From NCBI GenBank assembly GCA_020201485.1, contig JAIVGT010000001.1, forward strand, positions 1 to 16,533: a stretch of 16,533 nt of DNA, written 5' to 3'. The position numbers and the translations under genes are program-made. Positions 1-15,200 of this stretch are shown here, one piece after another. This DNA comes from Halobacteriales archaeon. GTDB lineage: Archaea > Thermoplasmatota > SW-10-69-26 > JACQPN01 > JAIVGT01. The notes below the pieces were generated by a model that searched no databases, was not told the origin of the DNA, and saw only the letters and a program-made list of their open reading frames with translations. Every line of letters starts with the position of its first letter. Positions within the stretch are counted from its first letter, which is position 1.

Positions 1-348
1 GAGCACGGCGGCCTCGCCGTGCTTCAGGTCGAGGATGGCGTAGTTGTTCCCATCGCCCAGCTCCATCTCCCCGGGCAGCGTATCGCGCACCTCGAGCAGG
101 CTCTTGCCGTGCCGCTTCACCAGCTCCAGGCGCAGCTCGACGGGGATGGCGTCGCCTTCCTGCACCGTCTCCGCCTTCACCGTGCGCCGCACCGTGACCT
201 CGGCCCCGCGCAGCGTGAGCCAGCCGAGCACGACCATGCCCAGGCCGAGCAGGCCGGCCGCGACCCAGAGCGGGTTGTCCAGGGCCAGGCCGCCGAGCAC
301 GCCGAGCATGCCGAGGAGGCCGACGAGCCGGCCCTTCGTCGTCAGCAT
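1..348 (-). CDS. DUF58 family membrane protein, N-terminal part (3' truncated by window edge)
   Basis: Translation from the ATG at 348 stays open to base 1 and gives the first 116 residues. It begins MLTTKGRLVG and has two hydrophobic segments at about residues 7-23 and 27-44, a helical hairpin. A soluble part follows, starting GAEVTVRRTVKAETVQEGD and running through LRLELVKRHGKSLLEVRDTLP. This is the usual start of DUF58 proteins: two helices, then a beta domain with an 'R.v....v.eGd.v.v.l.l' stretch and a 'D.lP' motif. The VWA-like domain that would follow lies outside the window. DUF58 proteins typically act with a MoxR AAA+ ATPase at the membrane; their substrate is usually unknown. The start overlaps the DUF4350 stop by one base (TGATG), and a GGGAGG site lies 9 bases upstream, so the start is well supported. 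Family assignment from a partial sequence is likely but not certain. Confidence 0.8.
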   Translation of the reverse strand, partial: MLTTKGRLVGLLGMLGVLGGLALDNPLWVAAGLLGLGMVVLGWLTLRGAEVTVRRTVKAETVQEGDAIPVELRLELVKRHGKSLLEVRDTLPGEMELGDGNNYAILDLKHGEAAVL

Positions 349-1580
349 CAGCGCGCGCCTCCCGATCCCTTCCGCGCCAGGAGCTGGACCTTGCGCAGCA
401 GCTCCAACGCCTCCGCCTTCGTGCTCTCGCCCAGGAGCAGCGCCTTGACCGCCGGGTCGGGCACGTGGACCGCAAGCTGCTGGGGCGTGGCCTGCTCCAC
501 CTGCTCCGGGGCCCAGCCGCTGCGCTGCTCCGCCACGCGCCGGGCGAGGCGGCGCAGGCGCTGCCCGGTGCGCTCCGGGCTGTCGAGGTGGGCAGGAAGG
601 TCGAGGGTGCTTGCGTGGGCGCTGATGTCCTCGGTGCGCGGGCTGACGGCGAACGCGGCCGCGGCGAGGAGCGCGGCGGCGAGCACGGCGGCGATGCTGA
701 TGCCGAGCTCGCTCGTGAGCTGCACCTCGCCGGCGAGGAGCGCGGCCAGGGGCGCGCCGGCCTCCTGCCCGTGCCGCGACTCGTCCACGAACACCGTGCC
801 CCCGTCCGGGAGCAGGGACTTGAACAACGCCTGGACGAAGGGCCCGTTGTCCGGGGCGAGGTCGTTCGCAAGCATGCCCGGGTCGCTGGCAAACAGGGCT
901 TGCCCCGGCCCGCTGCGCACGGCGCCGAGGACGAGGAACGGGCCCTTGATGTCGCCCGTGTCCTCCTGGCCGTCGAGGTTCTCGTCGATGTAGCTGTCGG
1001 AGCCGCTCACGGCCAGGGGCGTGACGTTCGCGCCGGGCGCGCTGCCCAGGCTCGCCGGCACGTTCATGGTGAAGGTGAAGTTCTCCGCGCCGAGCGTGGC
1101 GTTGACGCGCACCAGGCTGACGTTGCGGTCGTAGTTCGCGTCGCGGAGCTGCCGCTTGTCGAAGGTCACGCCGAAGGCCGCGCCGACCTGGTCGCCGAAG
1201 CCGAAGTCGTCGGCGACGAGCACCGTGCCCCCGCGGGCGACGAAGCCCTGGATGGCCTGGACCTCGCCTTCGCTGTAGGCGCGCTCCACGCCAGCGACGA
1301 GCAGCACGCTCCGGCCCGGCTCCTCCGCGGCGTCGATGGCGTGCGGCCCCGTGCCCAGGCTCTGCACGCCGATGCCCTGCACCTGCAAGCCTTGCGCCAG
1401 GATGCTCACGCCGCGCGCGCCCTCGTCGTACGCGCTGTTGCGCGGCGCGCCCCCCATGCCGGCCGCGGTCAGGGCCCAAAGCACGATGACGGCGGCGAGC
1501 ACGGCGCCCAGGGCGGGCTTGGCCAGCCGGCGCGCGCTCGGCCGGCGCGGCGCGGGCGGGGCGGGCGCGGCCTCAGCCAT
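348..1580 (-). CDS. DUF4350 domain-containing membrane protein
   Basis: This 410-residue protein has a basic N-terminus (PRRPSARRLAK) followed by a membrane helix at about 22-42. An external domain spans about 43-292, a second helix about 293-312 (ISIAAVLAAALLAAAAFAV), and a charged cytoplasmic tail about 313-410. The external part has the DUF4350 hallmarks: N48-SAYDEGARGVSILAQGL near its start, a 'SVLLVAG...YSEGEVQAIQGFVARGGTVLVADDF' region at 91-125 typical of the GATase-like fold, and VFVDESRHG at 263-271 matching the family's D-E-x-x-H segment. DUF4350 proteins have no settled biochemical role, but they habitually sit with DUF4129, DUF58 and MoxR genes, exactly as here. The start at 1580 overlaps the upstream stop in an 8-base ATGGCTGA, pointing to translational coupling. 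No cysteine is visible, unlike the neighbouring giant proteins. Family call is confident; function is not known. Confidence 0.88.
   Translation of the reverse strand: MAEAAPAPPAPRRPSARRLAKPALGAVLAAVIVLWALTAAGMGGAPRNSAYDEGARGVSILAQGLQVQGIGVQSLGTGPHAIDAAEEPGRSVLLVAGVERAYSEGEVQAIQGFVARGGTVLVADDFGFGDQVGAAFGVTFDKRQLRDANYDRNVSLVRVNATLGAENFTFTMNVPASLGSAPGANVTPLAVSGSDSYIDENLDGQEDTGDIKGPFLVLGAVRSGPGQALFASDPGMLANDLAPDNGPFVQALFKSLLPDGGTVFVDESRHGQEAGAPLAALLAGEVQLTSELGISIAAVLAAALLAAAAFAVSPRTEDISAHASTLDLPAHLDSPERTGQRLRRLARRVAEQRSGWAPEQVEQATPQQLAVHVPDPAVKALLLGESTKAEALELLRKVQLLARKGSGGAR
358..363 (-). promoter_or_regulatory. Ribosome binding site GGGAGG for the DUF58 gene
   Basis: GGGAGG is 9 bases upstream of the ATG at 348, within the last codons of the DUF4350 gene, and supports the start that overlaps the stop as TGATG. 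Confidence 0.7.
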
Positions 1581-4500
1581 CGGTCACCCCGGTGGCTGGC
1601 GGCTGGCCGGGCTTGCTCGCGAGGCGCGCCTCGCGGAGCTGCCGCTCGATGTCGCGCAGGGCCTGGAGCGCCTGGTCGCGCTGCAGCGGGCCGATGGGGT
1701 GGGGCGAGTAGCGCGCCTCCTCGAACACGGCGACGAGGCGCTCCAGGGGCTGGCGGCTCACGGGCAGGGTGCGCGCCATGGCCTCGAGCAGCTCGCGCGG
1801 CGTGAACGCGTCCTTCACGAGGAAGCCGTGCTCCGCCATGTGCTCGGTGAGGCGGCGGAAGCACCACAGGATGCTCGCCTGGTACTCCGTGCTGGCGAAG
1901 AGCATGCGCTGCGCCTCGGCGATGATGCGCTCCGCCTCGCTCACCTGCACGCGGCGCAGCCGGCGCGCGCCGAGCACGGCGGCCGCGGCGATGACGGCGA
2001 CGAGGAGCAGCGCCACGCCGAGCGCGCCCAGGCCAGTCTCGAGCAGGGGCACGCGGCTCTGGATGCTCACCCCGCGCTCGCTCGGGGCGAAGCCGCTGCC
2101 GCCGGGGAAGCGCACGCTCACGCTGCCCTGGCCCGGGCCCTGCATGCGCCCGGTGAAGTTCACCTGGCCGCCGGCGTCCGTGCGCAGCGTGAGGGGGAAG
2201 TCGTAGCCGGTGAAGTTGACCACGACCGGCTGGTCGGCCAGGGGCCGGCCTCCGTCGTCGCGCACGAGGATGAGCCCGGTGAAGACCTGGCCCTTGTCCA
2301 CGGCATCGGGCAGCGTGAGCTCGACGCGCGTGCCCACGGTGAGCGCGACCTGCGCCGTGTCGAAGCTGCCGATGTAGCCGTCGTCCCCCTCGAAGCTGGC
2401 CTCGACCGTGACGTTGCCCGGGGCGAGGAAGCCCGGCGGCCGGCCGATGAGGCGGACCTGGCCGGAGGTGTCCGTCACGCCCTGCCCGACCTGCGTGCCG
2501 GCGATGAGGAGCTGCACCTGCCGGTTCGCCAGGGGTTTGCCGTCCGTGCCGGCGAGCAGGGCGAGCACGGCGCCCGGCTCGCTCCGCACGAGCGGCTCGG
2601 CGCGCGCGATGCTCGTCACGCTCGGGGCGAGGATGCGGTAGGGCGCGCGGGCCTCGGCGCTCGCCAGCGTCCCGGAGCCGCCGTAGCGGACGACGAGGGC
2701 GTGCGTGCCGGGCACGGCACCCTCGGGCAGCGGCACCTCGGTGTCGAAGCTGCCCTGCAGGTCGGTGACGGCGAAGCCGAGCGTGGCGTTCTCGAGGAGG
2801 AGCTGGAGCTTGGCCCCGGGCACGGGCTGGCCGCGGTCGTCGCGCAGCGTGCCGTTCACCGGCAGGGCCCCCAGGCTCACCGTGCGGCCGCGCACGTCGA
2901 GCGTCGTGCCGGCCACGACCTGGAGCACGGCGGTGGCATCGGTCGCCGGCCCGAGCAGGCCCTCCTTCCCCCCGGGATAGCTGGCGCGCACGACCACGCC
3001 GCCCAACGACGCGTCCGTGGGCACGCTCACATCCGCGGTGAATCGCCCGTCCGCTCCGGTCGTGACGAGGAGCAGCGCGCCACCGAAGGTGACGTTCACC
3101 GTCTCGCCCGCCACGCCCTGGCCGCGCTCGTCGGTGAGGTTCCCGAGGATGGTCCCGGCGCGGCCCCGCACCAGCTCCCCGCCCGCGATGCCGAGCTGGG
3201 TGCGCGAGGTGAGCAGGACCTGGGACGTGGCCTGGCTCCCGCGGTAGAGCGGGCTGCCGAAGAAGTCGGCCTTGACCGCGAACGGCCCGGCGCCGGGCAA
3301 GAGATCCTTGGGCACGCTCAGGCTGAACTCGGCCCCGGTCACGTTCGCGAAGCCAACGAGGACGGGTGTGCTCACGCGCACCGTGGTGTTGCCCTCCTGC
3401 GTCGGGTCGTCGACCGGGTTGCCGGCGAGGTCGAGCAGCTTCCCGCTGACCACGAGGTCGTGGCCGAGGGGGGCGGTCTGCTGGGGCAGGGTGATGACCG
3501 TCTTCTGGAGCACGGTGACGAAGCCGGCGTCGGCCTCGCTCGCGTCGTACGCGTCCGCGCCCAGGAACTTCACCTTCACGGCCTGCGTGCCCACGCCCAC
3601 ATCGGTGGGCAGCGTGCCGACGATGGCGAACGCGCCGTCCGCGCTCACGTTGCCCGGGAAGCTCGTGCCCTGGAGCACGCCGGCGACCGGGCTGCCCGCG
3701 GGCACGGCGTCGCCGTGGAAGTCCACGACGCGCCCGCTCACGTGCATGGGCTCGCCCGCGGTCACCGTGGCGTTCACGTCGGTCACGTGGCCGGTCACGT
3801 TCGTCGGGTAGCGCACCTGCACCGTGCCCGTGAACGAGGCGCCGTTGACCAGGCCGTTGCTGCCGTCGTACACCACCTGCAGGTTGTGCGCGCCGAGCGT
3901 CGTGCCCACGTCCACCGGCAGGTCGAGGTCGAAGCCGCCGTCGTGCACGACGACCTCGGGAGCCGATTGGTAGGGCGTGGGGTTGAGCCACGTCACGCGC
4001 AGCACGCCGCCCTGGAGGTAGCGCGCCGGGAGCGGGTCGCCCAGGCTGTCCTGGGCCAGGCCCGTGGCCTGCAGGTCCTGGCCCGCGGTCACGTTCGACG
4101 CGCCCGGCACGCCGATCTGCGAGCCGCTCTGGAGCGTGAGCAGGGGCAACGTGAAGTTCCCGTTCGAGGCGTCGCTCGTCACGCTCGACCCGAGCACGCC
4201 GCGCGCCGCGAACGAGCCGCCGCCGGGCTTCGTCGCGGCGAACGCGTAGCTCCGCCCGTCCGGCGCCGTCTGGCGGCTGATGGCGAGGACGGTGAGCCGG
4301 TAGCCGGCGTCGGGGGTGAGCTTGCTCGTGTCCGGGCTCCAGCTCACCTCGCTCCCCGCGCCGCGCCGCGCGCCGAAGAGCACGGCGTCCTGGGGCAGGG
4401 TGGCGTTGCGCGCCCGGCTGGCCGCGGCGTGGATGGAGAAGGTCCCGTCGCTGGCCGTCTGCGCCACGCCCAGCACGTCCGCCTGCTCGCCGCTCCGGCC

Positions 4501-7500
4501 GGCGCTGCCCTGGGGCACGAGGTTCAGCAGCACGACCGCGCCGGGCACGGCTTGCGCCCCGCTGCCGTCCACCTGGAGCTTGCCGCGCACGGTGAAGTTC
4601 GCGCCCTTGAGGATGGTGCTCCCGCGCTGCGCCGCCGGGAGGCGCCCGTCGGGGTCGAGGTCCGCGCTCAGGCCCACGAGGCGCGTCGGGGCGTAGTTCA
4701 GCCGGTCGGGCACGCCGCTGCCCGTGCTGTCCACGTTCACCGTGCCCCGCCGCGCGTCGTGGAACACCCAGCCGTCCACGAAGCGGTGGTACGCCAGGCA
4801 GTCGGTGAGGGGCGGGGGGCTGGTGTTGTTGTGGTCGGCGAGCGGGCTGGGGTCCTCGCCGGTGAAGTCGTTGAGCCCGTCGTTGTCGAGGTCCACGTCC
4901 GCGCCGAGCACGCCGCCCGTGCGGTCGAAGGTCCCGTCGAGCACGCCATCGCCGTCCGTGTCCGTGGAGCGCGGGTCGTTGCCCAGCCACCACGGCCCGC
5001 ACACCGCCACGTCCCAGCCGCGCGGCATGCCCGTGGCGTACTCGGCGGTGGTGTTGAGCGCATCGGTGCACACCGGCGGGCAGCCCGGGCCCGACCCGTC
5101 ACCGATGCTGCCGGCGTCGAGCGGGTCGCGCGCGCCCTCGATGCCGTGCTTGTCCACCCAGTAAGATTCCCAGCCGTCGGGCAGGCCGTCCCCGTCGGAG
5201 TCGAGCAGGGTCGGGGTGGTGCCGAACATGTCCTCGCCGAGAAAGAGGACGCCGCGGGAGGTGACGTTCGCGGCGATGCCGGCGTCCACGAAGCGCTGGC
5301 TGAGCTGCGCCGCGCTCAGCGTGCACCCCTGGCGCGTGGTCACGTCGCGCGCCAGGACCACGCCGCTCTGCACCGTCTCGTAGAACGCCACGCCCGGCCC
5401 GTCGAGCAGCCCGTCGCGGTCGGAGTCCGGATCGGCGAGGCTCGTGCCCCGCGCCTGCTCGTCCTTGTTCAGCACGCCGTCGCAGTCCGTGTCGCCGTTC
5501 GGCGCGTCGTCCGGCGGATAGGCGGGGTTCGGGTCCTTGCCGTCGGTCAAGCCGCCGGCGTCGCTGTCCTGCACCGTGGGCTCGCTGCCCTTCGTGAACT
5601 CGTCGAGGTTGGGCAGGCCGTCGTTGTCCAGGTCGCCCCGGGCATCGCCCGCCTCCAGCGGGTCGAGCGTGTACGCAGCTTCCCAGGCATCGGGCAGGCC
5701 GTCGCCGTCCGTGTCCTGCAGGCTCGGGTCGAGGTCCTTCGTGAACTCCTGGAGGAAGGTCAGGTTCCACAGGCCGTGGATGCGGACCACGCCCGGGTAG
5801 ATGTCGCAGTCCGGGTCCGCCGGCCCCGTGTTCGGGCAGTCGGCGAAGCGCTCGCTCCGATTGCCGTCGAGCAGGCCCCGCGCCTGGTTGCTGTCACTCA
5901 CCGCGACGAAGCGCGCGAAGGGCACGCTCTTCCCCGTCTCGTTGCCGTCGCTCACGCCGTCCTTGTCCGCGTCCGGGCTGCTCGGGTCGAGGTCCACCTC
6001 GACCTCCGCCTTGTCGCTGCGCCCGATGCCACCGCACAGCTTCTTCGGCACGGTGGCGGTGATGCAGGTGAAGTACGCCTCCCAGCCGTCGGCCAGGCCG
6101 TCGGCATCGGTGTCGGCGACGTTCGGGCTCGTGCCGGCGAGGAACTCCTGGTAGTTCGTGAAGCCGAAGGCGACGCGGATGGCGTAGGCGCTGGCGTTGT
6201 AATGCACGCCGTCGCGGTCCAGGTCGCGGTCGGCATCGGTCCTGCCGTCGCGCAGGCGCAGGCTGTCCTTGCTGCTGGCGTTGAGGTTCCAGTCGCCCAG
6301 GCCGAAGTCGTAGTCGCCGAACTGGTCCTCCCAGGCGTCGGGCAGCTTGTCCGCGTCGCTGTCGCCGAGCGCCGGGTCGGTGCTGGGCAGGGGACGCTCG
6401 ATGCGCGAGTCCGCGCTCGTCGCCTTCGTGTCCGGCTCCAGCTCCCGGCCGTCGTCGAGCGTGTCGCCATCGCTGTCGCGGTCGAGGAGGTTGGGCTTGC
6501 CGTCGGCGTCCAGGTCGCCGCACGGTGCCATGGCGCTCAGCGCCTGCTCCCGGCCCACGCCGCTCCCGGCGCGGTTCCCCATCTCCTTCGCCAGCTCCTC
6601 GAGCGCCGCGTCCTGCTGCGCCCCCGTCGCGTCGTGCCGGCCCTGCCAGTACAGGACCTCCGCCCCGTCCAGGATGCCGTCCGCGTCGCTGTCCGGGTTC
6701 GTCGCGTCCAGGCGGCGCGGGTCGCTCGCGCTCGCGCACGGGAAGCTGACCTCCTCGAAGTCGCCCAGGCCGTCGAGGTCCGTGTCCGGGTTGCGCGGGT
6801 CGAGGGCGGGGAAGTTGAACGCGACGCCGTTCCGGAGCGCCTTGCCCTCTTTCTCCTCCAGGTCGCTCAGCCCGTCGCCGTCGGTGTCGGCGCGCCCCGG
6901 GTCGCTCGTGACGTGCGTGGCCTTGCCGGCGATGGTGGCGTCGTAGCCATCGACCTCCTGCTTGTCGCTCAGGGCGTCGCCGTCGCTGTCGGTGAGGAAC
7001 GGGTTGCTGCCGACCTTGCTCTCCTGCAGGTTGCTCAGGCCGTCCGCGTCCGGGTCGGCGTTCGGGCCGAGGCGCGGGTCGCCCGGGCCCGGGTCGAGCG
7101 GGTCGAGGCCATCGCGCACCTCGTACCCATCGGGCATGCCGTCGCCGTCCGTGTCGTTCCCCGCCGGGGTCAAGCCGCGCCCGAAGAGGCCGAGCAATTC
7201 CTTGCCTTGGACGCTGCAGTTGCAGCGCAGCCCCGCCGGCTTCACCACGCGGTCCTCGCTGAAGCGCGATTCCTCGAGCGCGGTAAGGCCATCGTGGTCC
7301 GCGTCCTGGAAGCCGACGCCGGCGTCGTCCAGCGGCAGGTGGAAGGTGACGAGCCAGCCGTCGGCGATGCCGCTGCCGCCCGTGCTGCGCCGCGTCGGGT
7401 CGGTGCGCGTGCTGTTGAACTCCTCCGGGTCGGTGAGCCCGTCGAGGTCGCTGTCGGCGCGGTCGCAGCGCGTGCCGAGCTGCTGCTCCTGCAGGTTGCT

Positions 7501-8073
7501 CAGGCCATCTGCGTCCGGGTCCGCGCCGCTGTCGGGCGTGAACGGGTCGCTGCCGCACGCCACCTCCAGCCCGTCGAGGACGCCGTCGCCGTCGATGTCC
7601 GGGTTGCTCGGGTCGGTGTCCGCGGCCATCTCCGCCGCGTTGCTCAGGCCGTCGTGGTCGCAGTCGCGGTTCGCGTCGGTGACGAGCGGGTCGGGGCAGT
7701 ACGTGCTGCTCAGCACGTCGAGCTTCGCGTGGCGCACCTCCCACAGGTCGGGCATCGCGTCGCCGTCGGTGTCGTTCGCCTTCGGATCCGTTCCCGAGAC
7801 CAGCTCCTCCAGGTCGCTCAGCCCGTCCTTGTCCGTGTCGAGCTGGGCGAGCCGCGTGTCGGGCTGGGCGCTGATGACGTCGATGTCCACGCTCGGCTGG
7901 TTCTGCCCGCTGTTCGGCGCGGCGGTGAGCAGGGCGACGCCGACGACGGCGAGCACGAGCGCGGCCGCGAGCAGGGGGAGCCAGCGCCCCTTCGACCCCG
8001 CGAGGAAGGCGAGCCGGGGCTCGACCCGGGCCCGGAGGCGCGCCAGGCCTTTCCGCAGGCGGGGGTCAGCCAT
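1573..8073 (-). CDS. Giant TSP3-repeat / Ig-like / DUF4129 membrane protein
   Basis: The protein has 2166 residues. A basic N-terminus (RKGLARLRARVEPR) precedes a signal-anchor helix at about 32-53. Residues about 79-1141 hold some 26 calcium-binding thrombospondin type 3 repeats of the DxDxDGxxDxxE form (for example DTDGDGLSDLEE). Residues about 1160-2006 form about eight Ig/transthyretin-like domains of roughly 95 residues, with recurring 'D..G.pv.g..v.....TD..G.f' and 'G....v.v.y.G...y' patterns. A second helix (about 2009-2036) ends in RRLRR, and a cytoplasmic DUF4129 domain occupies about 2044-2146, with FTPRELLEAM, LERLVAVFEEARYSPH and a preceding LTEHMAEHGF. DUF4129 is usually the C-terminal part of TgpA-type transglutaminases or a short two-helix protein; no transglutaminase core is present here, and the ectodomain is exceptional. 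Eighteen cysteines lie only in the TSP3 part. The start is set at the ATG at 8073, not the GTG at 8085, because that GTG lies inside the ribosome binding site. The role is probably a calcium-stiffened surface stalk or sensor linked to the DUF58/MoxR complex; that is inference. Confidence 0.9.
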   Translation of the reverse strand: MADPRLRKGLARLRARVEPRLAFLAGSKGRWLPLLAAALVLAVVGVALLTAAPNSGQNQPSVDIDVISAQPDTRLAQLDTDKDGLSDLEELVSGTDPKANDTDGDAMPDLWEVRHAKLDVLSSTYCPDPLVTDANRDCDHDGLSNAAEMAADTDPSNPDIDGDGVLDGLEVACGSDPFTPDSGADPDADGLSNLQEQQLGTRCDRADSDLDGLTDPEEFNSTRTDPTRRSTGGSGIADGWLVTFHLPLDDAGVGFQDADHDGLTALEESRFSEDRVVKPAGLRCNCSVQGKELLGLFGRGLTPAGNDTDGDGMPDGYEVRDGLDPLDPGPGDPRLGPNADPDADGLSNLQESKVGSNPFLTDSDGDALSDKQEVDGYDATIAGKATHVTSDPGRADTDGDGLSDLEEKEGKALRNGVAFNFPALDPRNPDTDLDGLGDFEEVSFPCASASDPRRLDATNPDSDADGILDGAEVLYWQGRHDATGAQQDAALEELAKEMGNRAGSGVGREQALSAMAPCGDLDADGKPNLLDRDSDGDTLDDGRELEPDTKATSADSRIERPLPSTDPALGDSDADKLPDAWEDQFGDYDFGLGDWNLNASSKDSLRLRDGRTDADRDLDRDGVHYNASAYAIRVAFGFTNYQEFLAGTSPNVADTDADGLADGWEAYFTCITATVPKKLCGGIGRSDKAEVEVDLDPSSPDADKDGVSDGNETGKSVPFARFVAVSDSNQARGLLDGNRSERFADCPNTGPADPDCDIYPGVVRIHGLWNLTFLQEFTKDLDPSLQDTDGDGLPDAWEAAYTLDPLEAGDARGDLDNDGLPNLDEFTKGSEPTVQDSDAGGLTDGKDPNPAYPPDDAPNGDTDCDGVLNKDEQARGTSLADPDSDRDGLLDGPGVAFYETVQSGVVLARDVTTRQGCTLSAAQLSQRFVDAGIAANVTSRGVLFLGEDMFGTTPTLLDSDGDGLPDGWESYWVDKHGIEGARDPLDAGSIGDGSGPGCPPVCTDALNTTAEYATGMPRGWDVAVCGPWWLGNDPRSTDTDGDGVLDGTFDRTGGVLGADVDLDNDGLNDFTGEDPSPLADHNNTSPPPLTDCLAYHRFVDGWVFHDARRGTVNVDSTGSGVPDRLNYAPTRLVGLSADLDPDGRLPAAQRGSTILKGANFTVRGKLQVDGSGAQAVPGAVVLLNLVPQGSAGRSGEQADVLGVAQTASDGTFSIHAAASRARNATLPQDAVLFGARRGAGSEVSWSPDTSKLTPDAGYRLTVLAISRQTAPDGRSYAFAATKPGGGSFAARGVLGSSVTSDASNGNFTLPLLTLQSGSQIGVPGASNVTAGQDLQATGLAQDSLGDPLPARYLQGGVLRVTWLNPTPYQSAPEVVVHDGGFDLDLPVDVGTTLGAHNLQVVYDGSNGLVNGASFTGTVQVRYPTNVTGHVTDVNATVTAGEPMHVSGRVVDFHGDAVPAGSPVAGVLQGTSFPGNVSADGAFAIVGTLPTDVGVGTQAVKVKFLGADAYDASEADAGFVTVLQKTVITLPQQTAPLGHDLVVSGKLLDLAGNPVDDPTQEGNTTVRVSTPVLVGFANVTGAEFSLSVPKDLLPGAGPFAVKADFFGSPLYRGSQATSQVLLTSRTQLGIAGGELVRGRAGTILGNLTDERGQGVAGETVNVTFGGALLLVTTGADGRFTADVSVPTDASLGGVVVRASYPGGKEGLLGPATDATAVLQVVAGTTLDVRGRTVSLGALPVNGTLRDDRGQPVPGAKLQLLLENATLGFAVTDLQGSFDTEVPLPEGAVPGTHALVVRYGGSGTLASAEARAPYRILAPSVTSIARAEPLVRSEPGAVLALLAGTDGKPLANRQVQLLIAGTQVGQGVTDTSGQVRLIGRPPGFLAPGNVTVEASFEGDDGYIGSFDTAQVALTVGTRVELTLPDAVDKGQVFTGLILVRDDGGRPLADQPVVVNFTGYDFPLTLRTDAGGQVNFTGRMQGPGQGSVSVRFPGGSGFAPSERGVSIQSRVPLLETGLGALGVALLLVAVIAAAAVLGARRLRRVQVSEAERIIAEAQRMLFASTEYQASILWCFRRLTEHMAEHGFLVKDAFTPRELLEAMARTLPVSRQPLERLVAVFEEARYSPHPIGPLQRDQALQALRDIERQLREARLASKPGQPPATGVTDG
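1584..1590 (-). promoter_or_regulatory. Weak ribosome binding site GGGGTGA for the DUF4350 gene
   Basis: GGGGTGA lies only 3 bases before the ATG at 1580, closer than usual. With the 8-base ATGGCTGA overlap, initiation here may rely on ribosomes finishing the upstream gene rather than on this site alone. Confidence 0.4.
1636..1944 (-). other. Cytoplasmic DUF4129 domain
   Basis: Residues about 2044-2146 of the giant protein, directly after the second membrane helix and its RRLRR stop-transfer cluster. Family features seen: helical start (SEAERIIAEAQRMLFAS), LTEHMAEHGF, the TPRELLEAM motif, and LERLVAVFEEARYSPHPIG ending in the typical 'aRYs' segment, then ALQALRDIERQL. In TgpA-type proteins this domain closes the protein on the cytoplasmic side. 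Here it is the only part that ties the stalk to the DUF58/MoxR-type genes. Confidence 0.85.
2056..4596 (-). repeat. About eight tandem Ig/transthyretin-like domains
   Basis: Residues about 1160-2006 of the DUF4129 protein. The repeat is best seen in the last six copies, about 95 residues each. Each begins after a TxL-type strand, has a 'G.l.D..G.pv.g..v.v' hairpin, then 'TD..G.f...v.vP....G...v.v.f.G...y.gs'. This is the carboxypeptidase-regulatory/Big_1-like pattern found in bacterial and archaeal surface stalks. There is no cysteine in the whole region, in contrast to the TSP3 part before it. It forms the membrane-proximal half of the ectodomain. Confidence 0.8.
4651..7839 (-). repeat. Array of about 26 thrombospondin type 3 (TSP3_bac-like) calcium-binding repeats
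   Basis: Within the giant DUF4129 protein, acidic motifs recur every 20-60 residues: DTDKDGLSDLEE, DTDGDAMPDLWE, DIDGDGVLDGLE, DSDADGILDGAE, DTDGDGLPDAWE and others. About 26 are canonical and two near the end (around residues 1115 and 1138) are decayed. Links such as SGTDP and AGTSP between motifs match the bacterial/archaeal TSP3 layout. In this family the aspartates and the glycine bind calcium and make a rigid wire-like stalk. On the DNA the array shows as degenerate repeats of a gtcgccgtccgtgtc-like word on the plus strand (for example at about 5700, 7141 and 7759). Several repeats are separated by longer inserts carrying cysteines or a helix. Confidence 0.93.
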
Positions 8074-11000
8074 CCGGGCCGCCACCTCGCCGCCTGCGCA
8101 TGAGGCTTGCGGCCGCGGCTGCCCCGACGGCGGCGAGCAGGAGCCCCGGCTCGAAGCCGGGCAAACCCCGGCCCACCTCGACCTGCACCAGGTTGTTCGA
8201 CTCGTCCGTCTCCGCGAACACGTCCGCCGGGTCGATCTGCACGGCGACGGTGCGCGGGGCCTCGTCCACCGTCCACGCGACGGTCACCGTGCGCGCCTCG
8301 CCCGGGGGCAGGGTGCGCAGGGCCTCGTCGCGCACGCCCTTCCCGTTCACGATGAGGCCCAGGCCCACGTTGTTCGCCGGGATGGTGCCGCGGTTCTGCA
8401 CGCTCACCGCCGCCACCGCGGGCTGGCCGACGGCGAAGCTCTGCGTGGCGAGCACGAGGTTGCTCACGATGAGGTCCAGGCGCGCCGTGACGGCAGGCAC
8501 GCTGAACTCCGCCTGCCGGTTGCTCAGGGCGTCGGTGGCTGTGACCTTCACGGGCTGCGCGGTCTCGGCGGGCGTGGAGGGCGCGTCCACGAGCATGCGC
8601 AGCTTCGTCTCCTCCCCCGGCTGCAGGTCGGCGACGCTGCTGTCGGGGAAGCGCGCGCCGTACCCGCCGGGGGCGGAGGCGACCAGGCGCAGCTTCACTG
8701 GCAGGTTGCCCGTGTTCACCACGCCCAGGGTGAGCTCGCGGTGCCCGCCGGGGGCGAAGAGCAACTGATCCACGCCCAGGTCCACCTTGAAGCCGGCCGT
8801 CTTGCGCACGAGGATGGTGAAGTTGCGCACGTCCGCCCCTTGCGTGAACGTGTCGTTCGCCGCGAGCACCACGCCCAACGCGTACACGCCCGCCTCCGTG
8901 GCGCGCGGCGGGGTGATGTTGAGGCGCACCGTGACCCGGTCGCCCGGGCGCAGGAACGTGCTGTTCGCCGGCTCCTCCACGGCCAGCGTCCAGTTCACGG
9001 GCAGGGCCCCGGCCGCGACGCGCAGCGTGAACGGGCCGTTCGCCGCGCTCCGCATCTCATACGTGAGGGGGAAGGGCTCGCCCGGGTTGATGCTGATGGG
9101 GGCGAAGTCCGGCTGGGCGAGGGTGAAGTTGTTGCCGACGATGGCCGTGACCTTCGCGCTGTCGCTCTGGCGGAAGCTCTTCACCGTGTCCCCGGTCTCG
9201 ATGACCACGGCGCTCGTCGCGACCACGTTCACCGGCACGACGAGGGCGACCGGCGCGTCGCGCGCCGCCGTGACGTTGACGACGAACTCGGCGTGGTCCA
9301 GGCTGTTGCCCAAGGCGTCCACCGCGCCGCGCGCCTTCAGGCTCCCCGGGGCGTCGAGGAAGCTGACGTTCCACCCGTTCGGCACCAGGCCGGTCGTGCC
9401 GTAGGTGATGGGCGTCTCGACATCGCCCAGGTTGTCGATGCGCATGTGGTACGTTGCGTTCGCCCCGGGCAGGACGAGGCTGGTGTCGTCCTCCGCCGTG
9501 AGCTTGATCTTCGCCTCGACGTTGATGAGCACGACGGCGCTCACCTGCTGCCGCACCGAGGCGTCCTCCTCGGCCGTGCCCTGGACCTCGACCTCGAACG
9601 GGAGCGGCTTGTTGTCGTTCGGGGCCGTGACCACGAGGGTGAGCACGGTGCGCGCGCCGCGCGCCAGGCTGAGCGGGGCGCCGGGCCGGCCGTCGCTGTC
9701 GATGACGCTCGTGCCCGCGCCGGGCGCGCACGCGCCGCTGAACTGCTGCACCAGGCCGGCGGTGAAGTCGAGGAAGCGCACCGGGCTCGCCTCCAGGTCG
9801 AGGTGCATGTCGCCCGTGCCCGTGTTCACGACCTCGACGTCCAGGCAGGTCGTGCTCCCTGGCTTGATGATCTTCTGCAGGCTGGTGCCGTTGCTCTCCA
9901 GGAACCGCATGGTGAACTCGTAGCGGATCTGGACGGTGATGACGACGTGGGCCACGTCGCGGAAGTTCGGGTTGCCCAGGCTGGTCGCCGTCACGTTGAC
10001 CTCGTACACCGTGCCCGTCGCGGCGTCGGGGGGCACGCCCACGGCGAGCGTCACGTCGCGGCCTTGGAAGCTGGGCACCTCGCCCCAGCGCGCCGGGCTC
10101 AGGTCCACCGCCGGGTCGGTGGCGTTGCCGGGCTTGCTCACCTCGCGCGTGATGTCGAAGGTGTCGCTGAGCGGCTGCGCCCCCACCGCCCGGCCCAGGT
10201 TCACCAGGCTGAGCTTGAGGCGAACGCGCTCCCCCGGGCCGACGCTCGCCGTCGCCACCTTGTCCTTCCAGCCCACGGCGAAGCCGTGGAACTCGCCCGC
10301 GCCCTGGGCTTGGAGCGGCGGCTCGGTCTTCGCCACGTAGTAGGTCGCGAACGGCGGGTCCACCGTCTTGCCCGGGCCGTAGAAGTAGGCGGCGACCGGC
10401 TTCGTCGCCTCGACGTGCCAGCTCCCGTAGGGCAGGTAGGGCGTGCCGCCGCTCTGCTTGTCGAGCCAGTCGTGCAGGCCCATCGTCGTGTTCGCCCGCT
10501 CCACGCCCGTCTTCGCGTCGCGGATGACGACGCGCGTGCCGTTGTACAGGCCCATGACGATGACGCGCGTCTCCCGGGCGTCGTTCTTGTCGTTCGTGAT
10601 GGTCGTGCCCTCGCTGTGCTCTTGCTGCAGGCTGAGGTCGAAGGACATGCCGAGCTTGCCGCCCACGGGGAAGATCCCGGCCTCGTTGCTCTTCGCCCAG
10701 AGGAGCGCGCCGTCGTCCTTGGCCTGGATGCGCCACGCCTTGCCGATGTAGTCGGGCGAGGCGGAGCAGGCGCACCGGTGGTACAGGGCGTTGCTCGCGT
10801 TCGCGGCCAGGGGCTCGGCCTCGAGCGCGTTCGGGTCGTCCGGGATGCCGATGGGGCTGGCGATCTGCAGCGTGGTCGGCCGGTTCGTGTCCACGATGGT
10901 CAGGTCCTCGTTCACCACGGTGTAGAGCTGCGCGTCCACCGTCGCCCCGAACGGCCCGACGGCGGGCAGGCCGATGTCCGCGCCGATGCCCGTGCCCACG

Positions 11001-12280
11001 ACCATGACCGGCTTCGAGGCGAAGAGGTGGATGCGGTCGCCGCTGCCGAAGCTCCCGATGCGGCCGACGCCGTCCACGTTGGCGAAGCCATTCGCGTCGC
11101 CCGACCAGCCCACGCTCGCGGCTCCGGACGGGCTGAGGATGTACAGGGGCGTGGCGGCGCCGCCCGCCTCCGAGTCCTGCGCCGTGCGGAAGAGGAACTC
11201 CGTCCCGGACAGGCCGCCGTCCTTGGCCGGGTACCACGTCGCGCCCTTCGCCCCATCCACGCTTTTCAGCGCGACCACGACCGGCTTGCTCGCCACGACG
11301 CGGAAGAAGAACGGCTGCGCCTGGGGCACGTCGAGGCACACCGTGCCCTTGAACGACGTGCTCGGGCACGGCCCGGCCTGCCCGTTCGTGTCGCTGTCCA
11401 GGGCGTTCATCGTCGCCTGGACCATGAGCGCCGGCTCCACCCCGCGGCTGACGTACTTGTAGATGGCCACCGTCGTGTTGTCGTAGAGGGGCTGGGCGAG
11501 GAGCACGCCCGGGCCCGTCGCCATCGTCGCCGGGGCGTAGCCGAGGATGTCCGTGCCGCTCCGGATGAAGTGCGTGCCCTGGACGATGCCCGCGTCCCGC
11601 GCCGGGTAGCTGGCCGGGGCCTTGTGGCCGTTCTGCAGGATGTCGAAGTAGACGAAGAACAGGCGTGGCGCGCCGAACTCCCCGCGCACGGCGAACTGGA
11701 GCGTGCCCACGGCGTTGCGCGAGGCATCGAACGCCGGGTCGCGGTCGGGCTGCACGTTCGCCCACAGCCCGGGGGCGAAGGTCGCGGCCACGAGCAGGTC
11801 CTCCGGCCGGTCGCTGGTCACGCCGCAGCGCAGGTCCTGCGTCGTGCGGTCCACGGCCAGGGGGCAGCCCTTGAAGCGGTCGTGCTCGACGACGCGCACG
11901 CTGTCCGCGTCCAGGGTGAAGGAGCTGAGCCGCCCCTGCGCGTCCTTCGGCCAGCCGAAGCCCTCGGGCCCGGCCTGGCGGATGGCCTCGGTGAAGTCCA
12001 CCTCGACGAGCGCCGGGTAGTTGCGCACGTGGTTCCCCGACAGGTCGGCCAGGCCGCCGTTGATGCGGTCCACGACCTTCGGCTGGAGGAGGACGGGCAC
12101 GCGCATGTGCCAGGCCGCGTCCCACCACGGGTAGGCCACGCCCGGCAGGGTCGCGCCCGAAGCGTCCTGGGCCTGCGCGGCCGGTGCGAGGTCGAGCGCG
12201 GCGAGGGGCTGGAGCACGAGGAGCGCGAGCAGCACGACTACGAGCCAGGGGGGCGAAGGGGGGACGCGTCCCGGCCTCAC
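8066..12280 (-). CDS. Secreted multi-domain surface protein with PGF-CTERM-like tail (DUF2341-like, IgGFc-like, NEW3, CARDB)
   Basis: The protein has 1404 residues and starts at a GTG that overlaps the previous stop in GTGA. A signal peptide covers about 1-38 (hydrophobic WLVVVLLALLVLQPLAALDL, then AQAQ). Residues 47-140 begin PWWDAAWHMRVPVLL, resembling the start of DUF2341-type domains. Residues about 160-650 are beta-rich and contain three copies of a 'ASKPVxV' type motif (325-338, 419-430, 624-634), as in IgGFc-binding-like domains. From about 670 to 1263 follow roughly five NEW3-like beta-sandwiches ('sv.pGe.v.l.l.lvN.G' and GNLPVKL patterns). A CARDB domain occupies 1264-1367, ending FAETDESNNLVQV. 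The C-terminus is LPGFEP, a short hydrophobic helix, then RRRR, a PGF-CTERM-like sorting signal. Eight cysteines fall in close pairs (139/152, 305/315, 503/505, 812/851). Likely an exported, processed and membrane-anchored adhesin or sheath protein; no catalytic motif was seen. Confidence 0.88.
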   Translation of the reverse strand: MRPGRVPPSPPWLVVVLLALLVLQPLAALDLAPAAQAQDASGATLPGVAYPWWDAAWHMRVPVLLQPKVVDRINGGLADLSGNHVRNYPALVEVDFTEAIRQAGPEGFGWPKDAQGRLSSFTLDADSVRVVEHDRFKGCPLAVDRTTQDLRCGVTSDRPEDLLVAATFAPGLWANVQPDRDPAFDASRNAVGTLQFAVRGEFGAPRLFFVYFDILQNGHKAPASYPARDAGIVQGTHFIRSGTDILGYAPATMATGPGVLLAQPLYDNTTVAIYKYVSRGVEPALMVQATMNALDSDTNGQAGPCPSTSFKGTVCLDVPQAQPFFFRVVASKPVVVALKSVDGAKGATWYPAKDGGLSGTEFLFRTAQDSEAGGAATPLYILSPSGAASVGWSGDANGFANVDGVGRIGSFGSGDRIHLFASKPVMVVGTGIGADIGLPAVGPFGATVDAQLYTVVNEDLTIVDTNRPTTLQIASPIGIPDDPNALEAEPLAANASNALYHRCACSASPDYIGKAWRIQAKDDGALLWAKSNEAGIFPVGGKLGMSFDLSLQQEHSEGTTITNDKNDARETRVIVMGLYNGTRVVIRDAKTGVERANTTMGLHDWLDKQSGGTPYLPYGSWHVEATKPVAAYFYGPGKTVDPPFATYYVAKTEPPLQAQGAGEFHGFAVGWKDKVATASVGPGERVRLKLSLVNLGRAVGAQPLSDTFDITREVSKPGNATDPAVDLSPARWGEVPSFQGRDVTLAVGVPPDAATGTVYEVNVTATSLGNPNFRDVAHVVITVQIRYEFTMRFLESNGTSLQKIIKPGSTTCLDVEVVNTGTGDMHLDLEASPVRFLDFTAGLVQQFSGACAPGAGTSVIDSDGRPGAPLSLARGARTVLTLVVTAPNDNKPLPFEVEVQGTAEEDASVRQQVSAVVLINVEAKIKLTAEDDTSLVLPGANATYHMRIDNLGDVETPITYGTTGLVPNGWNVSFLDAPGSLKARGAVDALGNSLDHAEFVVNVTAARDAPVALVVPVNVVATSAVVIETGDTVKSFRQSDSAKVTAIVGNNFTLAQPDFAPISINPGEPFPLTYEMRSAANGPFTLRVAAGALPVNWTLAVEEPANSTFLRPGDRVTVRLNITPPRATEAGVYALGVVLAANDTFTQGADVRNFTILVRKTAGFKVDLGVDQLLFAPGGHRELTLGVVNTGNLPVKLRLVASAPGGYGARFPDSSVADLQPGEETKLRMLVDAPSTPAETAQPVKVTATDALSNRQAEFSVPAVTARLDLIVSNLVLATQSFAVGQPAVAAVSVQNRGTIPANNVGLGLIVNGKGVRDEALRTLPPGEARTVTVAWTVDEAPRTVAVQIDPADVFAETDESNNLVQVEVGRGLPGFEPGLLLAAVGAAAAASLMRRRRGGGPDG
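8069..8164 (-). other. C-terminal PGF-CTERM-like sorting signal
   Basis: Codes LPGFEP, then GLLLAAVGAAAAASLM, then RRRRGGGPDG at the end of the second surface protein. The order motif, short hydrophobic helix, arginine cluster is the tripartite form recognised by archaeosortase-type enzymes. The PGFE variant differs slightly from the classic PGF consensus. No archaeosortase gene is in the window. Confidence 0.75.
8083..8088 (-). promoter_or_regulatory. Ribosome binding site GAGGTG for the DUF4129 protein
   Basis: GAGGTG lies 9 bases upstream of the ATG at 8073 and matches the complement of the 16S rRNA 3' end. It decides the start: the alternative GTG at 8085 would sit inside it. The site is embedded in the CGA GGT codons of the arginine/glycine tail of the preceding gene. 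Confidence 0.75.
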
Positions 12281-15200
12281 GGCCAGGCCCTCCGCCGCAA
12301 CACCGCGACCGCCAGCAGGGCGGCCACGGCCAGCATCGGCTCCAGCCCGGGCACGGCGAAGAACGCGCCGCCGCTCTCCACGTGCAGGACGCGGACCACG
12401 GCGTTGTTGTCCTCGTCGTCCTCGCCCACCGCCTTGCCCGGGTCCACGGCGGCGAGCACGACGTGCTCCCCGTGCTGGACCTTGAAGCTCACGTTCAGCG
12501 TCGCCGCCTCGCCCGGCTGCAGGTCGCGGCCGGCGTCGAAGCCGACCAGGGTGTTGTCGAGGTACACGGCGACCGTGCCCGGAGCGGGCGCGTTGCCGTT
12601 GTTCCGCACCGTCACGCCGATGGTGGCCACGTTCCCCTCGCGCAGCGCGCCCTTGGGCTGGAGGTCGAAGCCCTCCACCTGCAGGTCGGCGCGCGCGGCG
12701 CGCAGGACCTGGTGCAGCGTGTAGTTGGCTCCCCGGCCGCTTGCCGCCACGGCCTGGAGGCGGTGCTCGCCGCTCGCCGCGCCCTGCGGCACGTCGAGGC
12801 TCACGGGCAACGCGCGCTGCTCCCCGGGCTCCATGCTGGCGATGTCGCGCGCCAGGTGCGCCTGCCAGCCCGCGGGCACGAGCAGGCTGAGGTCGGCGTG
12901 CGCCGGCAGGTTGCCCGCGTTGCGCACGACGAGCAAGCCCTGCAGCTGCGCGCCGGGCAGGGCCATCTCCGGCAAGCCCTGCACCTCCAGGCGCAGCAGC
13001 TCGAGAGGCAGGACCTGCACTTGGGCCTGGGCCGGGAGCAGGTCCCCGCCGCGGCCCTGCGCCTGCAAGGCCAAGGGATAGGGGCCCTCGGGCGTGGTCG
13101 TGGGGATGCTCACGTTGAGCCGCACCGTGATGCTGCTCTTCGGCGGCACGCCGAAGCTCGCCGGCTCCAAGGCCCAGCCCGCGGGCAGGCTCGTGGCGCG
13201 CACCGTGACCGTGTCCACGCCGTTGCCCTTGTTCACGAGGTGCACGGGCAGGAACTGGTCGCCGGGCGGGAGGAGCAGCCCGTCATCGACGCTGAAGCGC
13301 AGGCCGAAGTCCTGGGGCACGTCCACCTGGATGCCCGACTCCATGACCTCCGTCGTGTTCTCGCTCGCGCCGCGCAGGAGGATGATGACCGGGCCCGCCT
13401 CGGCGAAGGGCGGGGCGGTGATGCTCAGGCTGAGGTTGGCCTGGCTGTGGTTGCCGATGGCCACGTGCACGCCCTCGCCCTGCTCGCCGAACGCGCTGCG
13501 CCAGTTGTCGGGCGGGATGAGCTGCACGTCGTACGCGTCGTCGACGTCGCCCCGGTTGAGGAGGGTCAGGGTCGCGTTCACCGTGCCGCCCGGCTTCACG
13601 GTCAGGCCCAGGGGCACGGCCGCGTCCAGCCCACGGCTGCGCACGCTGACCGTGATGACCGCGGTGTTGTCGTCGATGGTCTCCAGGCGCTCCAGCACGC
13701 CGGCCCGGGGCACGGCGCGCACGAAGATGAACTGCTGCCCGGGAAAGGCCGCGCGGAAGCTGACGCTCAGCGTGACCGTGCCCCCGGGCGGGATGCTGTC
13801 CGGGAGCACGTGCGGCGGGTCGCCGCTCAGCAGGTCGGTGACGCCGGCGCGCATCGTGACCTGCACGCCATCCGCGCTCGCCCCGCCCTTGTTCGTGATG
13901 CGGGCCTGGATGTCCACCACGTCCCCCGGCGTCGGGTTGAGCTGGCTGGCGTGGGCCTCGACGAGCAGGTCCGGGAACTCCGCCTTCGGCACCTGGACCG
14001 CCTTCGTGAACACGTTGTCCTTCTCGTCGAACTCCAGGATCTCCGCCAGCGGGTCGACGATGGCCGTGATGTTGTGCTCGCCGTCCAGGCTCGGGACCCA
14101 GTTCACGGTGACGACGCGCAGGTCCGCCGGGGCGAGGTCGAAGGGCGGGATGTCCGTGCCGTCGACGCGCTTCAGCGGGACGGGGGCGACGCCGAAGCTC
14201 GCATCCACCTTGTCGAGCACGTCGAGGCGCGCGCCGACCGCGGGCACCGTGCCCGTGTTCTGCACGATGACGTCCACGGTGCGCGGCTTGTCCACGGCCA
14301 GCGTGGCGTCGTTGATGATGACGCCCGCCACGCGCAGGTTCGGCCGGTCCGGGTAGGTGAAGTGCAGCAGGAGGTGCTGCGTGCCGCGCAGGAACGCCGT
14401 GGTCTTGCTGATGGCGGTGATGGCCAGGTCCACCTGGCCCTCGCGCGGCAGGCTGGGCTGCGCCACGTCGATGTGCACGCGCACGGTGATGACGCGCCGC
14501 TCGCCCGGCTGGGCGCGCACCTCCTTCAGGGGCCGGCCCTGCTCGTCGAGCAGTTCGACCCGCCAGTTGCTCGGACCCTTGCTGGGCAGGCCGGTCTCGT
14601 CCTGCAGGCTGACCTGGTAGGTGTCGGTGTACCCGCCGCGGTTCAGGAGGGCGAGGTGGAACTCCTTCGTGACGTTGTCCCCGATGGGGATGTCCTGCGC
14701 CGGGCTGAGGGCGGTGCCGTACGGCGTGATGAACACGTCGTCGATGGCCCAGTCGCGCAGGAGCACGGCCCCGTCGCGCGGGCTGGGCTGCTCCAGGTGC
14801 CAGCAGACCTGCACGTGGTCCCAGTAGTCCAGGGCCTGCTTGCTCTCCGCTTGCGCGCGGTCGAGGAGCGGGCCGAGGTCCACGCTGCGCAGCACCCACT
14901 TGTTCGCGGCGAAGCCCGGGCTGGCCGGCGTGCTGCCCTGGATGTGCGCGTCCACGAGCTGCCAGCCGTGGACGTTGAACTGGTTCTCGCACTGGCCGGT
15001 GGGGAAGACCGTGCTCGTGTCCTTGCAGGGCACGTCATCGGGGTGCAGCGCGTCCGCCTCGCAATGCACGAGGCGGGCGAAGATGTTGCCGTCGGCGTCC
15101 AAGGCGTTGAACTGGTGGCGGTCGGCGTAGATGAGCTGCGGCCGCTGCATGTACGCGATGGGGATGGCCGGGCTGTGGACCGCGGCGAACAGCGTGCCCA

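Follow-up and report, generated by a model that had tools for sequence, protein, structure and literature searches.

A giant DUF4129 protein with TSP3 repeats and Ig-like domains in Thermoplasmatota, and its ties to DUF4350 and DUF58 genes

We describe a giant protein of 2166 residues that is encoded in a stretch of archaeal DNA of 16533 bases (hereafter the window), which is the entire contig C385 of a metagenome-assembled genome of the Thermoplasmatota (2.24 Mb in 404 contigs, 76.8% complete). An initial annotation made from the letters alone had read this protein as a cytoplasmic DUF4129 domain joined through a membrane helix to a long ectodomain of calcium-binding repeats and immunoglobulin-like (Ig-like) domains, and had proposed a surface sensor, tether or scaffold that works with a MoxR/DUF58 complex. 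Our analysis confirms that observation as a whole and supports the interpretation in part. The giant is not a lone oddity, since its layout recurs in many relatives across the phylum. DUF4129 is likely the cytoplasmic coupling point of a MoxR-DUF58-DUF4350 machine, and with moderate confidence we take the giant to be the outer-stalk subunit of a DUF4129-DUF4350-DUF58-MoxR membrane machine, including the docking and assembly mechanism set out below. The gene and the parts of its product are as follows.

1573..8073, minus strand: gene of the giant DUF4129 protein, 2166 residues (2170 if translation begins at a GTG codon at 8085)
7918..7974, minus strand: N-terminal membrane helix, residues 34-52 (hydropathy 2.69; kept in the homologue alignment)
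4867..7839, minus strand: TSP3-type Asp-rich array, residues 79-1069, 25 blocks (Pfam TSP3_bac and pattern count)
2053..4617, minus strand: eight beta-sandwich (Ig-like or CarboxypepD_reg-like) domains, residues 1153-2007 (AlphaFold2 strands and Pfam)
1975..2031, minus strand: C-terminal membrane helix, residues 2015-2033 (hydropathy 2.74; a long helix in the AlphaFold2 model)
1654..1863, minus strand: cytoplasmic DUF4129 domain, residues 2071-2140 (Pfam 52.7 bits, cut-off 24.8)

The assignment of the C-terminal domain to DUF4129, on which the initial annotation depended, holds well above the Pfam cut-off, and the domain reached 60.5 bits in a second search. Pfam, hydropathy and AlphaFold2 together place it on the cytoplasmic side of the last membrane helix, as in the layout of TgpA transglutaminases. 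The annotation had named this helix, which stands; a second at residues 34-52 had been missed. The latter is preceded by very basic residues and is probably an uncleaved signal anchor. Given the basic N-terminus and a membrane helix at each end, both termini of the giant probably lie in the cytoplasm, as judged from hydropathy. Between them, the TSP3 array that had been put at about 26 repeats is upheld by Pfam (TSP3_bac, 51 bits in 7 stretches) and by shuffling, with the count revised to 25 blocks by the pattern Dx[DN]x[DN]xxx[DN], whose starts span residues 79-1061. The strict form DxDxD[GA]xxD occurs 16 times in residues 60-1140, where 1000 shuffles gave 0.16 on average and never more than 2, and the ectodomain probably binds calcium. 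The placement of the cysteines, 18 of 19 of which fall within residues 126-1092 while the Ig part has none, suggests disulphide-braced repeats.

The second half of the ectodomain was modeled with AlphaFold2 (residues 1150-2166, 19-sequence alignment), giving a mean predicted local distance difference test score (pLDDT) of 85.1 and a predicted template modeling score of 0.42. Our own reading of the strands in this model finds eight beta-sandwiches, in agreement with the approximately eight Ig-like domains first proposed, followed by one long membrane helix and four shorter helices that constitute DUF4129. A Pfam search of the translation, which the annotation had put forward as a check, matches CarboxypepD_reg (35.3 bits) in addition to DUF4129 and TSP3_bac, with Big_1 and Big_3_5 falling slightly below cut-off. 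The best structural alignments of the model are to a large-adhesin extender repeat, complement and alpha-2-macroglobulin chains, and invasin. The root mean square deviation is 9-44 in 49 of 50 rows, so the domains match singly and not as one rigid rod; this structural list, obtained with VIA-align, consists of Ig domain matches throughout and says nothing on the DUF4129 fold. A search of the whole giant against solved structures by sequence returned none at 0.01.

Stacked Ig-like domains are also found in bacterial adhesin extenders, invasin and intimin, which raises the alternative that the giant is a receptor or adhesin whose stalk senses a surface, another cell or strain in the S-layer and, through the helix and DUF4129, switches MoxR/DUF58. 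A parallel would be the bifidobacterial PFNA cluster, pkb2-fn3-MoxR-duf58-tgm, in which the gene of a large secreted multi-domain protein is grouped with those of MoxR, DUF58 and a transglutaminase (PMC8430577). That cluster differs in being bacterial, in having FN3 and transglutaminase as separate proteins and in including a kinase gene, pkb2 (PMC8430577). In the four window proteins scanned with Pfam there is no match to FN3, a kinase or Transglut_core, although the operon extends past the contig. Furthermore, Pfam detects no ligand domain in the giant, and its stalk seems to be anchored in the membrane at both ends and to carry a cytoplasmic DUF4129, unlike an adhesin that exposes its tip. 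We regard a receptor or adhesin as possible, if doubtful.

Six homologues of 2144-2159 residues, encoded on other contigs, align with the giant over nearly the full length at 55-64% identity. All six carry DUF4129 in a precomputed Pfam list, three of the six carry TSP3_bac, and most Asp positions of the TSP3 array are conserved across them. An assembly error that fused two genes is ruled out by these homologues. To a chance fusion of two genes, likewise, we give next to no credence: the TSP3 and Ig-DUF4129 parts do exist as separate genes in three loci (L048, L050 and L085), but against this stand the six homologues and the fused genes at L033, L032, L035 and L076, whose genomes belong to the family, order and class of the window.

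More broadly, we surveyed 97 genomes of the phylum, including the window's own, with the DUF4129 domain of the window as query. DUF4129 was found in 51 of these genomes, with 82 matches when the window is included. The open frames around these matches are at least 900 residues long in 66 cases and at least 2000 in 39, lengths that may exceed those of the true proteins in GC-rich genomes. The 19 loci of TSP3-repeat proteins listed as L052-L070 match the giant only within residues 45-1154, the TSP3 half. By title these come from bacteria and two archaea, 10 of the 19 titles naming Verrucomicrobia or one of its genera, and they match the stalk patterns LGDWNLNA or PD.WE.

Profiles show the TSP3 array as a gene of its own at L048, L050 and L085, with the Ig-DUF4129 gene immediately downstream, whereas TSP3 and DUF4129 share one frame in, for example, L032, L033, L035, L039, L049, L076 and L082. 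The split loci suggest that the giant is a natural fusion, and the adjoining of the split genes suggests that the stalk goes with its anchor, whether in cis or in trans. In L050 the C-terminus of the separate TSP3 protein (Pfam 147 bits) has a weak match of 13.5 bits to the giant's first beta-sandwich, and for L036 and L050 alignments of the Ig-DUF4129 protein to the giant begin at about residues 1325-1376. These two features hint weakly at a junction between the TSP3 and Ig-DUF4129 parts at roughly residues 1220-1330. In a tree of 16 loci (the window, which lacks MoxR, is not among them) the fused or split state needs several changes; the state is not readable at L036 and L080, where the contigs begin at DUF4129.

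The initial annotation had also stated that no transglutaminase core is present. This is correct for the window protein, in which Transglut_core is absent from Pfam results at E up to 1, but not for the family, where a transglutaminase core shares the open frame with at least 23 of the 82 DUF4129 matches. TgpA is also marked by five membrane helices at its N-terminus (TgpA_N/DUF3488); the giant has no match to TgpA_N and one N-terminal helix only. Given how often relatives carry the core, the window protein is best called a transglutaminase-less branch of giant TgpA-like proteins. The clearest core-bearing giant is a 2660-residue protein at L049 2766-10745 (transglutaminase core 89.7, TSP3 265 and DUF4129 32.5 bits), which, unlike the window protein, joins the core, 25 TSP3 stretches, Ig domains and DUF4129, and is followed by DUF4350-MoxR-DUF58. 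By eye the Cys and His motifs of its core look intact, with Glu at the usual Asp position. Pfam scores for core and DUF4129 add to these 23 one further case above cut-off at L034 (28.3 and 29.0 bits) and one below both cut-offs at L080 (20.0 and 18.3 bits). A tree of 45 DUF4129 domains has many weak nodes and leaves loss or gain of the core unplaced. Genomes of families f17 and f25 (e.g. G019:C1, L044, L045) mostly encode two giants, one of approximately 2,400-2,700 residues and one of 3,000; among the rows listed, one of the two has the transglutaminase core, and this is usually the longer one (15 of 17 genomes).

These core-bearing giants bring up a further explanation, which is that the core of the window's lineage has moved to another gene and that the giant positions substrates for this separate transglutaminase. 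Other DUF4129 giants do hold the core in cis, and the window's own genome has one transglutaminase core match. That match, however, is on a different contig with no operon link seen, with no dedicated search having been made beside these operons, and we consider such a scaffold very unlikely.

The evidence that ties the giant to a MoxR-DUF58-DUF4350 machine comes from gene order and from co-occurrence. Gene order was read with our own profiles, supplemented by Pfam for selected proteins, in the window and 35 other neighbourhoods, which were mostly chosen from DUF4129 matches and some of which also gave profile seeds, so that this sample is not independent. Within it, DUF4129 is present in 32 of 36 neighbourhoods and is directly followed downstream by DUF4350 in 21 of these 32. 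DUF58 is present in 19 of the 21 loci (18 of 20 when the window is set aside) and MoxR in 18, the same-family locus L033 included. The usual order is DUF4129-DUF4350-MoxR-DUF58, often then a small membrane protein. In genome G001, of the window's family, it is DUF4129-DUF4350-DUF58-small membrane protein-MoxR, and DUF58 likewise precedes MoxR in G004, of the same taxonomic order, in agreement with the layout of the window.

Recurrence beside DUF58 and DUF4350 genes had been put forward at the outset as support for a conserved system, and it is borne out by a Pfam check of all 82 matches, in which a match counts as linked if DUF4350 lies downstream at no more than 3 kb, or DUF58 at no more than 8 kb. 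By this measure 38 matches are linked, comprising 38 of the 50 outside families f17 and f25 and none of the 32 inside. In these two families the giants and the module lie apart in the genome or on separate contigs, yet DUF4129, DUF4350 and DUF58 are each present in precisely two copies in 14 of 17 genomes. Co-occurrence extends beyond linkage: DUF58 is found in all 51 DUF4129 genomes and DUF4129 in none of the 31 genomes without DUF58 (Fisher p 2e-14, inflated by the relatedness of the genomes, for which it is not corrected), and at the family level DUF58 is present in 20/20 families with DUF4129 versus 6/14 without (p 2e-4). DUF4350 is found in 47 of the 51. Among the control genomes, that of Haloferax volcanii gave matches to DUF4129, DUF4350 and DUF58. 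In addition, the EEARYS motif, located at residues 2118-2123 of the giant, is present in 27 of the 30 top-scoring loci, with EEVRYS or ERARYS in the remaining three.

Another explanation is that the giant is a plain component of the surface layer, its ectodomain being structural, its DUF4129 an anchor inherited from a TgpA-like ancestor and its operon a reflection of shared membrane targeting. The ectodomains differ widely between families while DUF4129 stays, the window branch is devoid of the transglutaminase core, and EEARYS drifts in weaker matches, all of which fit such a component. This explanation does not readily account for the retention of EEARYS in most of the best-scoring loci, nor for the finding that no DUF4129 genome is without DUF58 even where the genes are unlinked. 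We judge it unlikely.

Within the window itself, the genes taken as real are all on the minus strand and overlap one another by 1-8 bases. Large plus strand frames (e.g. 1336-8103) were read as high-GC shadows of minus strand genes and set aside. In the sense of transcription the operon runs CARDB/NEW3, CARDB/NEW3, the giant, DUF4350 and the start of DUF58, and it is cut at both contig ends. The neighbours of the giant gene are the following.

348..1580, minus strand: DUF4350 protein, 410 residues (Pfam 44.2 bits), overlapping the giant gene by 8 bases
1..348, minus strand: first 116 residues of a DUF58 (vWA) protein (58 bits with a DUF58 profile of our own)
8066..12280, minus strand: secreted CARDB/NEW3 protein, 1404 residues (Pfam CARDB 52.1 bits, NPCBM_assoc 45.7 bits)
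12277..16449, minus strand: second CARDB/NEW3 protein (Pfam CARDB 109.4 bits), 1390 residues from the first start codon

The DUF4350 protein has membrane helices at residues 24-42 and 294-312 and then a tail of approximately 98 residues, as read from hydropathy. The DUF58 fragment ends at the contig edge, upstream of the vWA part, and the Pfam DUF58 model does not reach into these 116 residues; a DUF58 gene is present at the equivalent position in the same-family genome G001 (locus L033). The CARDB/NEW3 protein at 8066..12280, which overlaps the giant gene by 8 bases, has a signal-like start and by eye a PGF-CTERM-like tail. The gene at 12277..16449 is probably 5'-truncated, its frame being open to the contig end, and its product also has a PGF-CTERM-like tail, for which the PGF-CTERM model gives 13.5 bits, below the cut-off of 18.8. 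With these two proteins and the eight beta-sandwiches of the giant, neighbouring surface proteins with Ig-like domains are present. CARDB-type genes also lie upstream in L032, L035, L050, L075 and L076, weakly (33-44 bits) in three of them. Archaeosortase A is encoded elsewhere in the window's own genome (G000:C348; 134.9 bits, cut-off 75) and is matched in 17 of 21 genomes searched; among 14 control genomes, two archaea only gave a match.

Several side observations concern the same genes. A second MoxR-DUF58 cluster occurs in the window's own genome (L074, G000:C55, 2151-7726) and in G001 (L034, G001:C55, 6314-12765), where an Ig-domain protein with a DUF4129-like C-terminus adjoins MoxR and DUF58. 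The resemblance was read by eye in L074, and in L034 the protein scores 29 bits for DUF4129 and 28 bits for the transglutaminase core; no DUF4350 match was found within the stretch examined. The relative G002 has DUF4350, MoxR and DUF58, although part of its sequence reads N and DUF4129 is not assessable there. No archaeal small-subunit ribosomal RNA was found in the window's own genome. A PADLOC search (E <=0.01) gave no match for two window proteins and three from relatives, and a role in anti-phage defence was dropped on the basis of these five proteins. The small membrane protein that follows DUF58 in many operons has no Pfam match above cut-off; examples are listed here.

L050 6017-6598, L032 7488-8159, L033 11260-11769 and L051 6397-6900: small membrane protein

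In the outer-stalk reading that we favor, both ends of the giant would lie in the cytoplasm and each would be held by one membrane helix; the part between them, at the cell surface, would consist of a TSP3 rod stiffened by calcium and then the eight Ig-like extender domains. The vWA domain of DUF58, in the cytosol, would dock on DUF4129, and a ring of the AAA+ ATPase MoxR would spend ATP on assembling, gating or pulling the complex of DUF58, DUF4129 and DUF4350. The stalk may then place, anchor or export the large CARDB surface proteins encoded upstream, whose PGF-CTERM-like tails would accord with the archaeosortase A in the genome. This reading starts from observed domains, hydropathy topology, gene order, fusion or splitting of TSP3 and genome-level co-occurrence; from these we infer every physical contact, the binding of calcium, the ATP step and the role in surface assembly. 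The case for a functional coupling is far stronger than the case for preferring assembly or secretion to adhesion or sensing. A more far-reaching version, which strikes us as rather unlikely, is that the enzyme-bearing TgpA partner of MoxR-DUF58 became a giant mechanical transmission in Thermoplasmatota, in which an ATP-driven AAA+ ring and a vWA protein in the cell work by way of DUF4129 on a doubly anchored, calcium-stiffened rod outside that loads, extends or retracts surface proteins. In that version enzymatic, transglutaminase-bearing forms and purely mechanical, transglutaminase-less forms would work side by side in one cell, as suggested by the paired paralogues of f17 and f25.

A number of observations weigh against the outer-stalk reading. 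The AlphaFold2 model of residues 1-1150, the TSP3 half, is poor (mean pLDDT 47.5) and was left unused, and a sequence comparison of DUF4129 with solved structures gave three rows with E of 0.79-0.91, taken as chance. DUF4129 is unlinked in 12 of the 50 matches outside f17/f25 and in all 32 inside, some of them close to the end of a contig. No DUF4350 was found in four of the 51 DUF4129 genomes, and 15 of 66 DUF58 genomes have no DUF4129 match. The window ends inside DUF58, before any MoxR neighbour could appear, and the best MoxR match of its own genome is on another contig, beside another DUF58 gene. Finally, the EEARYS count describes the best-scoring matches, with weaker ones drifting to FEIARYS (L049) and FEIANYS (L034).

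Comparison with known systems reveals both likenesses and differences. TgpA, like the giant, has an external domain, a last membrane helix and then DUF4129, and the proteins PA2875 and PA2874 are MoxR and DUF58. In contrast to TgpA, the window protein has 2166 residues, two helices, no transglutaminase core, and TSP3 and Ig domains. TgpA of Pseudomonas aeruginosa (PA2873) is described as a protein of 688 residues with six predicted membrane helices and a transglutaminase core, encoded in an operon with PA2875 and PA2874 (PMC3507681).

A 2015 analysis predicted that an archaeal DUF4350-MoxR-vWA cluster (arCOG01314) forms a secretion or membrane-remodelling complex (PMC5898192). The predicted operon described there combines MoxR and a vWA protein with a DUF4350 protein that spans the membrane twice and with Ig-like surface neighbours (PMC5898192). 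The last two are shared by the window, which ends inside DUF58; MoxR and DUF58 are both seen at related loci. A difference is that the table, in its flattened text, seems to mark the complex absent from Thermoplasmata and calls the vWA protein likely secreted (PMC5898192). The start of the window DUF58 protein, by contrast, has by eye two hydrophobic stretches and then basic residues, which suggests a cytoplasmic vWA domain. No TSP3 giant appears in the available portion of that paper, which is not among the papers matching DUF4129 (PMC5898192). Literature titles and the starts of abstracts, in a search that most subscription journals lay outside, likewise gave no description of a TSP3-DUF4129 giant.

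The component families are known; what is new is the giant form that recurs through the phylum, its calcium-type stalk, fused in some loci and split in others, the pairs of transglutaminase-bearing and transglutaminase-less paralogues, and the way in which DUF4129 tracks DUF58. To our knowledge, few targets of the widespread MoxR-DUF58 modules have been identified. The presence of DUF58 in every DUF4129 genome surveyed points to DUF4129 as a membrane-spanning client or docking partner of these modules, and the ectodomain of the giant suggests that their output is at the cell surface. This extends the 2015 archaeal prediction to a phylum left seemingly blank in its table and ties it to the TgpA family. 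Moreover, the transglutaminase-bearing and transglutaminase-less paralogues constitute a clean pair for asking what the machine does without the enzyme.
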